A stretch of 26,084 nt of DNA from a virus: positions 1 through 26,084 of the IMG/VR virus record IMGVR_UViG_3300042542_000434; one strand, given 5' to 3'. Positions within the stretch are counted from its first letter, which is position 1. Each line of letters begins with the position of its first letter. The translations under genes were made by a program, and so were the position numbers. Below, piece by piece: positions 654-2,860 of this stretch. Below the pieces are notes generated by a model, which was not told where the DNA came from, searched no databases, and saw only the letters and a program-made list of their open reading frames with translations.

Positions 654-1195
654 GTCTTAAACTAAATACTGCATCAGGCGGTTCAATAACCTTACAAGAA
701 GCAGACACAGCTAGTAATTTAACGATTACTGTACCAGCTGTTACAGGGACTCTGATAACGACAGCATCTACTTTTGCTGGTACTGGTCCAGCTTTTAGCG
801 TTACAAAATCAGCAAACCAATCAATTTCAGGCAGTACTTGGACTAAAGTAACTTTTGATACTGAAGGGTTTGACACAGCTAGTTTCTTTGATACATCTAC
901 AAGTCGTTTTACACCTCTTGTTGCTGGGTATTACCAAGTAAATGGTGCTGCATGGATGGGCGGTCAACCGCAGCAAAGGGTGTCAGTATATAAGAACGGA
1001 ACTGAATATAAAACAGGACCTGTGACAGCAAACGGAGGTGGGTATATGAACTCATCTAACGTTGTATGTATTGTTTATTTAAATGGGTCAACTGACTATA
1101 TTGAGCTTTATGTTTATCAAGCAGGTGGTTCGCAGACAATTGATAAAACCGCAACTGACACATATTTTCAAGGTGTATTAGTGAGGACAGCGTGA
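650..1195 (+). CDS. Tail fibre / receptor-binding protein with C1q-like domain
   Basis: This 181-residue protein begins MSLKLNTASGGSITLQEADT, a leader shared by many environmental phage fibres. It continues with TITVPAVTGTLITTAST and then a compact beta domain from about residue 45 to the end. The block FSVTKSANQSISGSTWTKV, FTPLVAGYYQVNGAAW, QRVSVYKNGTEY, DYIELYVYQAGGSQTI and TYFQGVLVRTA has the order and spacing of a C1q/TNF-like jelly roll, which usually trimerises. The leader probably attaches it to the tail or a neighbouring fibre, and the C1q head would contact the host surface; both are inferred. It is coupled to its neighbours by ATGA upstream and TGATG downstream. Confidence 0.8.
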   Translation: MSLKLNTASGGSITLQEADTASNLTITVPAVTGTLITTASTFAGTGPAFSVTKSANQSISGSTWTKVTFDTEGFDTASFFDTSTSRFTPLVAGYYQVNGAAWMGGQPQQRVSVYKNGTEYKTGPVTANGGGYMNSSNVVCIVYLNGSTDYIELYVYQAGGSQTIDKTATDTYFQGVLVRTA

Positions 1196-1356
1196 TGCTT
1201 TACGACAAAATTATTTCTATTTACCCTGAACTTGCAGATTTTGACTTTGCAAACGGAGTAATCACACTACAAAACGATTCAGACGGCAATGGCGATTACA
1301 TTGCTAAGTGGGAACACCCTACGCTAGCTAGACCTACAGAGGAGCAATTAGCATGA
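1195..1356 (+). CDS. XkdW-like small tail protein (53 aa)
   Basis: The ATG at 1195 shares its A with the TGA of the C1q fibre (TGATG). The product is 53 residues: MLYDKIISIYPELADFDF, then a segment with ITLQNDSDG, then YIAKWEHPTLARPTEEQLA. The layout (short N-terminal helix ending IYPEL, acidic LQNDSDG turn, IAKW..P..P..EQLA end) matches the XkdW family of PBSX-type prophages, whose function is not established but whose genes sit beside tail-fibre genes. Its stop overlaps the start of the homing endonuclease gene at 1353. It is likely a partner or chaperone of the preceding fibre. Confidence 0.7.
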   Translation: MLYDKIISIYPELADFDFANGVITLQNDSDGNGDYIAKWEHPTLARPTEEQLA

Positions 1357-1871
1357 CAGTTTCAATTAACGGGACTAGCGGACTAGCTAAAAGATTCAAC
1401 GAAGCCTTTGAGTATAAAGAAGGTGCTTTGTATTGGAAGATTAATACTAATAAATCAAAGAAACTAACAGGTAAGAGAGCTGGTTGCTACTCGTCAGGTG
1501 CTTACGGTGTTGTTAATTTAGACGGTAAAAATTATAGTATCCACAAAGTTGTTTATTGTATGCACACAGGAGAGATGCCTGTAGTTGTAGACCATATTAA
1601 TAGAATTAAGACAGACCACAGAATTGAAAACCTAAGAGCTGCTGACCACCACACTAACAACTACAACAAAGAAACACAAAAGAACAATAAACTAGGTGTT
1701 AAGAATGTTTGTTGGAATGAACAAAATAAAAAGTATTGGGTGCAAGTAAGAGCTAAAGGAAAAACAGTTGTGTCTAAAATGTTTGATAGCTTAGAGCTTG
1801 CTGAACTTGTAGCTACTGAGGCTCGTGATAAATTTCACGGTAAATTTGCTAACCACGGAGTATCTGTATGA
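1353..1871 (+). CDS. HNH homing endonuclease with AP2 domain and a tail-fibre-type leader
   Basis: The gene encodes 172 residues. Residues 1-11 (MTVSINGTSGL) match fibre leaders such as MSVSINGSGAITFN at 1868, not endonucleases. From about residue 12 it is a typical phage HNH enzyme: FEYKEGALYWKI at 19-30, His64 in YSIHKVVY, the metal and catalytic core VVVDHINRI with D80, H81 and N83, then IENLRAA with N93. An AP2-like DNA-binding domain spans about 114-165, including GVKNVCWNEQNKKYWVQV. It should cut one DNA site and spread itself into related phages; known members are stand-alone mobile genes. The start has GAGGAG upstream and overlaps the preceding stop, and the end overlaps the next fibre (ATGA). 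There is no other in-frame Met until residue 70, so the borrowed leader supplies the start. Confidence 0.9.
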   Translation: MTVSINGTSGLAKRFNEAFEYKEGALYWKINTNKSKKLTGKRAGCYSSGAYGVVNLDGKNYSIHKVVYCMHTGEMPVVVDHINRIKTDHRIENLRAADHHTNNYNKETQKNNKLGVKNVCWNEQNKKYWVQVRAKGKTVVSKMFDSLELAELVATEARDKFHGKFANHGVSV

Positions 1872-2698
1872 GTGTGTCTATAAACGGAAGCGGAGCAATA
1901 ACATTTAACGACAACACAACACAAGCCTCTGCACAAGTTGGAATGAAGAACAGATTAATTGATGCTGGTTTTATTATTAACCAGCGAGGCTATGCAAGCG
2001 GTACATCTTTGTCATCAGGAGCTTATGCTCACGACAGATGGAAAGCTGGTTCAAGTGGTTGTACCTATACCTTTACTCAAGGTTCTTTAGGTGTACCAAT
2101 TACACTAACAATTACTGCTGGTTCTTTACAGCAGATTGTTGAAGGATGTAACATGGCTGAAGGCGGTACTTTTGTCTTATCTTGGACAGGTACTGCACAA
2201 GCTAAAATTAATGGCGGTAGCTATTCAGCTAGTCCTTTAGTTGTTACTGGTCTTACTGCTGGAGCAAACTGCACCGTTGAGTTTGGTACTGGAACAGTAT
2301 CTCAACCACAACTAGAAAAAGGCTCTACTGCTACTAGCTTTGATTACAGACCTTATGGTACTGAGTTAGCTTTGTGTCAGAGGTATTACACAGTTCAAAA
2401 GACAGACACAACTAGCACATCTTTTGGTTTGGGAATGTCAATTTCTACAACTGCTTGTAGGGTAGTTATACCTTACCCTGTACAAATGAGAACTGTCCCT
2501 ACTGGGGCTTACACAGGAACTATTTCAGTAAATGATGGTGCTCTTGTTGGAAATGTATCTTCATTATCTGCATCTTGGAACAACATAACAAATGGATTTA
2601 TTCAGTTTACTAATGGTGCTATTACTGCTGCTGGTAGAGCGGTTCAAATTTATTCTGGCTCATCAGATGCAACCATTTCTTTTTCTGCGGAGTTATAA
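1868..2698 (+). CDS. Tail fibre / receptor-binding protein
   Basis: This is a 276-residue protein. The leader MSVSINGSGAITFNDNTTQA is followed by MKNRLIDAGFIINQRG and YAHDRWKAGSSG at about 26-59. Many phage fibres share this pattern (NR.I..G...NQRG...Y..DRW), which in those families begins a beta-sandwich, carbohydrate-binding-like domain. PQLEKGSTATSFDYRPYG and ELALCQRYY at about 148-174 are also highly characteristic. The remaining approximately 100 residues form a Ser/Thr-rich beta domain ending TISFSAEL, probably the host-contacting tip. It is coupled upstream to the HNH gene by ATGA and is followed by its own small partner gene. Receptor specificity cannot be read from the sequence. Confidence 0.82.
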   Translation: MSVSINGSGAITFNDNTTQASAQVGMKNRLIDAGFIINQRGYASGTSLSSGAYAHDRWKAGSSGCTYTFTQGSLGVPITLTITAGSLQQIVEGCNMAEGGTFVLSWTGTAQAKINGGSYSASPLVVTGLTAGANCTVEFGTGTVSQPQLEKGSTATSFDYRPYGTELALCQRYYTVQKTDTTSTSFGLGMSISTTACRVVIPYPVQMRTVPTGAYTGTISVNDGALVGNVSSLSASWNNITNGFIQFTNGAITAAGRAVQIYSGSSDATISFSAEL

Positions 2699-2860
2699 AT
2701 GTACAAACTATGTTATGACTTGGTTTTAAATCAAACAGCAAATTGCGTAATTCGTTTAAGCGATGGTGCTTGCATCCCATTTGACCCCCAAAATACTGAT
2801 TACCAAGAGTACCTAAAATGGGTAGCTGAAGGCAACGAACCATTACCAGCGGATGAATAA
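2699..2860 (+). CDS. Small tail-fibre-associated protein (53 aa)
   Basis: The ATG lies directly after the fibre's TAA and the gene encodes 53 residues. It begins [20 protein letters not shown], has [18 protein letters not shown] in the middle and ends [15 protein letters not shown]. The segment [22 protein letters not shown] recurs in very small phage proteins encoded immediately after tail-fibre genes. Those proteins are usually called tail assembly proteins on positional grounds, without a proven mechanism. No catalytic or membrane motif is visible. It fits the alternation of fibre and tiny partner gene seen three times between 1 and 2860. Confidence 0.65.

Follow-up and report, generated by a model that had tools for sequence, protein, structure and literature searches.

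A putative homing endonuclease fused to borrowed tail-fibre leaders in freshwater-type phages

The DNA analysed here (the window) is a 26,084-base virus record from a podovirus-like phage, whose DNA polymerase is nearest to those of the Pelagibacter phages HTVC103P and HTVC104P, at 47% identity. Within it, a predicted nuclease gene separates a small XkdW-like gene from a tail-fibre gene (Table 1). The Pfam XkdW match of the small gene lies below the cut-off (E 4.9e-5; 23.4 bits, cut-off 24.6), and the gene was found in 80 retrieved viral contigs, usually with a fibre gene directly 3'. It ends in GAG GAG CAA TTA GCA TGA, overlapping the nuclease ATG (ATGA), and GAGGAG (1339-1344) in its last codons is the likely ribosome-binding site of the nuclease. 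At the other end the arrangement is similar, with GGAG lying within the final nuclease codons, 7 nt 5' of the fibre ATG, as a likely ribosome-binding site, and this ATG overlapping the nuclease stop (ATGA). At three of the 80 XkdW-like loci (L052, L068 and L090), GIY-YIG-like or related nuclease ORFs were seen by eye in this position, directly behind the XkdW-like gene, without a leader, and in L132, L136 and L143 the nuclease start codons lie in another frame within the last XkdW-like codons.

Table 1. Features of the nuclease-fibre locus (window coordinates unless stated otherwise).
Feature	Coordinates	Strand	Evidence or remark
Small XkdW-like gene, 53 aa, between fibre genes	1195..1356	+	Weak Pfam XkdW match
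Captured fibre leader MTVSINGTSGL, start of nuclease ORF	1353..1385	+	Equals the N-terminus of the L120 fibre; leader varies among copies with identical bodies
HNH_3/AP2-type endonuclease body and stop	1386..1871	+	D80, H81 and N93 match I-HmuI catalytic residues by motif
Mobile block, nuclease and 5' part of next fibre, 1015 bp	1374..2388	+	Zero mismatches in L118 and L122
GGAG (1857-1860) and fibre ATG (1868-1870)	1857..1870	+	Sequence
Downstream tail-fibre gene, own leader MSVSINGSGAITFN	1868..2698	+	phrog_4492 tail fiber protein, E 6e-37
Right-hand breakpoint, a conserved fibre motif (QLEKGSTATSFDYRPYGTELALCQRYY)	2313..2388	+	Identity of 95-100% with nuclease-free relatives
Variable tip of the fibre, with first part of next small gene (2699-2860)	2389..2744	+	Differs in the window, L118 and L122
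NUMOD-type nuclease ORF of L123	start 3773 of reversed contig	reverse	23-residue fibre leader

The ORF at 1353-1871 (172 residues, forward strand) reads MTVSINGTSGL followed by AKRFNEAFEY..., a fusion of a fibre leader (residues 1-11) with an HNH_3/AP2-type phage endonuclease (phrog_99). The phrog_99 (HNH endonuclease) profile matched residues 13-169 (E 1e-52), that is the whole nuclease body, and Pfam HNH_3 matched residues 63-103; since family matches start only at residue 13, the leader lies outside the nuclease family. The initial annotation had taken everything behind the leader for an HNH/AP2 endonuclease, and both matches bear out the HNH part, whereas the AP2 profile itself found no match in this protein. 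HNH_3 was present in 12 of 12 family members and Pfam AP2 in 4 of the 12 (best E 0.0012), and the C-terminal half of the nuclease aligns with AP2-type nucleases. D80, H81 and N93, whose I-HmuI counterparts are named as catalytic in PMC12724721, are invariant across the family alignment (A1), and among solved structures the family profile matched I-HmuI alone (1u3e_M, E 0.0016). An NCBIfam search gave no relevant match. For the nuclease core, dN/dS was 0.08-0.15 (pairs with measurable dS only), and the gene is evidently under strong purifying selection. Taken together, the low dN/dS and the kept catalytic residues make up the pattern expected of a working enzyme, as far as can be predicted from sequence.

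The first 11 residues of the nuclease, which had been described as being of the fibre-leader type, proved to match 11 of 11 the start of the fibre gene of L120, MTVSINGTSGLVFNDASTQNT, and the fibre downstream of the nuclease opens with a leader of this type as well. When nuclease N-termini were compared with 1918 ORF N-termini, leader shuffles (60) matched at most 7 of 11 positions. In nuclease-free phages a fibre, MSVSINGTSGLVFNDAS..., stands directly after the same small upstream gene. Four of them (L113, L116, L119 and L121) share the upstream gene of L118, which bears the nuclease, yet in these four the ATG is the start of a complete fibre, MSVSINGTSGLVFNDASTQNTAATGFGFKNRIINGAM, which continues uninterrupted from the leader MSVSINGTSGL, and L120 has the exact leader of the window. 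The occurrence of the same upstream gene and leader in nuclease-free fibres supports the earlier proposal that the nuclease sits just inside a fibre start and uses the start codon, Shine-Dalgarno sequence and leader of that fibre.

Fusions of this kind were seen repeatedly among close relatives of the nuclease, MPITLDGT and MSQLSVNAILDANGGNTATINSMT being among their leaders. In a 14-member nuclease clade (SH-aLRT 99, quick tree), the starts found at readable fibre loci range over SINGTSGL leaders, MPITLDGT, MSQLSVNAILDANGGNTATINSMTLQ, MSQVRVNTIVDANSGNTAQINGMTPTADSLH, MTYGTVQANAIQ... and independent starts. Some close relatives start independently (MELAKRF in L007, MPTIAERF in L006), and in L005 an out-of-frame leader remnant of five codons, MPVSIV and a stop, precedes the nuclease's own ATG. 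The N-termini of 12 of the 84 non-redundant relatives matched an ORF N-terminus in the set better than all 60 shuffles did, and outside the clade the nuclease start of L131 looks fibre-leader-like (by eye only). A nuclease of another family, with an I-HmuI-type NUMOD match, carries the leader MTLAINGTTGITLAGQFDSASTF in L123, where the fibre behind it starts MTLAISGTTGITLAGQFDSASTF; the two leaders are nearly the same in protein with many synonymous differences in DNA, and the pair is therefore not a fresh duplication. Recent tandem duplication of the leader was thus ruled out for L123, and also for the window, whose two leaders are different over their whole length. In L014 (3983-4501), an HNH nuclease of this family finishes, before its stop, with the XkdW-like tail HPTLAKPTDEELA, which shows that the nuclease can be chimeric on the 3' side as well. 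In L012 (132-626), the nuclease matches L011 in its first part and is no more than a distant relative over the remainder, which suggests a recombination event within the gene. Fibre leaders, SINGTSG included, were also sought in HNH relatives beside endolysin, ribonucleotide reductase and portal genes and none was found, which ruled out the leader as a general part of HNH enzymes.

A pattern search for the end of the XkdW-like gene together with the leader returned 13 contigs, and most of the compared sequences are metagenome contigs. Presence and absence of the nuclease at one site in near-identical genomes was observed in three pairs. On the left side, L118 (filled) and L116 (empty) are 99.1% identical over 903 bp, ending 34 nt past the ATG; no similarity follows across 926 bp of L118 (nuclease and fibre stem) versus 624 bp of L116 (resident stem), after which the two are 100% identical over 55 bp at the motif ending CQRY, then carry different tips, and to the right of the tip are 99.9% identical over 2673 bp. 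Similarly, L012 (filled) and L061 (empty) share 95.5% identity over 155 bp, up to the leader MPITLDGT, followed by nuclease in the one and fibre in the other, and L137 (filled) and L045 (empty) share 93% over 86 bp through MSQLQ. A stem of the L116 type was thus replaced by the nuclease together with another stem, and the resident fibre was not merely split by an insertion.

The extent of this replacement is delimited by the window, L118 and L122, which diverge at exactly the same bases, the last difference on the left being at 1373, within the leader, and the first on the right at 2389, after CQRYY. The DNA flanking the block is 89-96% identical among the three phages, which have three different fibre tips, and the 1015 identical base pairs take in the fibre stem, so that flanking sequence was co-transferred with the nuclease. 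By this comparison the block is a recent spread of nuclease and stem, the tips having been exchanged independently; the nuclease and the first part of the new fibre evidently arrived together, replacing the resident stem. The initial annotation had also considered the downstream fibre as the re-initiated remainder of an invaded gene. This part did not hold: a complete leader of its own opens the downstream fibre, whose 5' part belongs with the nuclease to a single block that three phages share without a mismatch; a simple split of one fibre gene was ruled out on the same grounds, the stem travelling with the nuclease. Window positions 2389-2744, the fibre tip and the beginning of the small gene behind it, are exchanged as one piece at CQRYY between phages that have the stem in common.

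That the leader is a native N-terminal part of the nuclease family, fibre-like by chance, has a negligible probability and nothing found in its favour, as near-identical nuclease bodies have different leaders, relatives elsewhere start without one and the fibre match of 11 of 11 stands against the shuffle maximum of 7; the filled and empty pairs ruled out such an origin. In a group I intron or an intein, the leader would be a 5' exon continuing in frame into the nuclease, and the 3' exon would be the downstream fibre, an arrangement that recalls the fungal mitochondrial intron ORFs that are fused in frame to the first codons of an upstream exon (PMC7487136). This is nevertheless highly improbable, the downstream fibre having its own leader, start codon and Shine-Dalgarno sequence and the leader sequence being present twice, as in L123, and an intron was ruled out by the Rfam search, in which neither the window nor ten related loci matched a group I intron or any other family. 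In metagenome assemblies, on the other hand, a repeated block may be mis-joined to the wrong flanks, and a 100% identical block in metagenomic contigs would be a known cause of such mis-joins. An assembly chimaera is still very unlikely here, since the block-bearing contigs (L001/L115, L002/L118 and L003/L122) come from three different datasets, L118 is more than 99% identical to one and the same relative, L116, on either side of the block, and three filled and empty pairs with different leaders agree.

The fusion, its recurrence and the replacement are well supported by these comparisons. They point, with a probability of about 0.8, to a homing endonuclease of the free-standing HNH/AP2 type whose gene enters fibre leaders by recombination and takes over their translation start. 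A copy of the nuclease would come to lie in the leader at the 5' end of a resident fibre gene, whose Shine-Dalgarno sequence, ATG and first codons would thereby become the nuclease start, while the 3' end of the nuclease provides the next fibre with a Shine-Dalgarno sequence and an overlapping ATGA; with signals at both ends, the operon would stay translatable on either side. In the window lineage the spreading unit is the nuclease plus the fibre stem, bounded by the leader on the left and the conserved fibre motif on the right. Double-strand cleavage of the empty allele by the nuclease would start the exchange, and the leader probably serves expression and homology rather than enzyme activity.

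Whether the nuclease causes these exchanges is a separate matter. Ordinary homologous recombination at conserved joints (the XkdW-like end, the leader and CQRYY) may instead carry the nuclease cassette as a passenger, the leader fusion being a by-product of crossovers within the leader, and this is a serious possibility, short of an even chance. The nuclease-free pairs L053/L054, L065/L066 and L066/L084 are 95-98% identical upstream (last 110 bp) and unrelated from the ATG, and L113 and L116, neither of which carries the nuclease, agree at 99.9% over the stem, then switch tips at the motif; since gene changes are common at the upstream junction of nuclease-free phages and tips change there too, ordinary recombination could move the nuclease as well. 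Against a mere passenger speak the strong purifying selection on the nuclease, the several nuclease families at the joint (HNH, NUMOD type and GIY-YIG-like ORFs) and the presence of the nuclease in the zero-mismatch block. The earlier suggestion of a driver of fibre swapping is therefore plausible and weakly supported, the swapping itself being observed and the driving role unproven, given that genes are exchanged at the upstream junction, and tips at this motif, in phages lacking the nuclease as well. Such exchange without the nuclease marks the fusion locus as a general exchange region, where the nuclease may cause part of the exchanges or simply travel with them. Rather speculatively, these could be homing endonucleases specialised on fibre leaders, the enzyme recognising the conserved 5' end of fibre genes and its insertion splitting the target, in effect a self-spreading exchanger of receptor-binding proteins; if so, every round of homing would alter the nuclease N-terminus together with the stem of the following fibre. 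Near-identical phages with filled and empty alleles provide ready substrates for asking whether a selfish nuclease moves receptor-binding modules from phage to phage; at stake is whether a mobile element, besides selection, can drive the exchange of fibres and shifts in host range.

Descriptions of free-standing homing endonucleases usually place them between genes or within introns. Our literature search, whose coverage was incomplete, returned no report of a homing endonuclease repeatedly fused to fibre leaders or to the start of the invaded gene. The closest kind are the phage HNH-AP2 or I-HmuI-like homing endonucleases (phrog_99, HNH_3; T4 mob, Skunavirus and Xanthomonas phage HNH genes), which have in common with the present nuclease the HNH motif, a free-standing position beside structural genes and presence or absence between related phages; here, however, the reading frame is fused to the leader of the invaded fibre, so that the start is that of a host gene and differs among copies. 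With its motif, its presence and absence at one site and its co-transferred flanks, the nuclease ranks as a putative member of this kind. In T-even phages, fibre adhesins are reportedly swapped by recombination between conserved motifs, as described by Tetart and colleagues in 1998. Short conserved fibre motifs are the exchange points in both cases, whereas here the segment exchanged includes a nuclease gene. HEG-islands (Barth, Dunham and Seed 2023, PMC10448857) exceed 10 kb and are bracketed by two or more nuclease genes. They likewise contain a structural gene, proposed as cargo, that is near-identical in otherwise divergent phages beside a homing endonuclease gene. The present block, in contrast, has about 1 kb, a single nuclease on one side and joints in the fibre leader and the fibre motif, and bracketing is absent, the XkdW-like gene and the fibre lying on either side of the one nuclease gene. 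Fungal mitochondrial GIY-YIG endonucleases also borrow host-gene expression signals by in-frame fusion to an upstream exon (PMC7487136), but these fusions lie in introns and are freed by proteolysis, whereas no intron was found here and the next gene restarts with its own leader.

The phages carrying the nuclease-fibre fusion are freshwater-type. The same fusion was not found in cultured phages of the phage collection, which yielded distant HNH relatives only (<60% identity). Distantly related fibres are carried by Methylophilales phages, and a scan of bacterial genomes recovered one close relative of the nuclease, on a 4.5-kb contig of a Methylococcaceae genome bin that is possibly a phage fragment.
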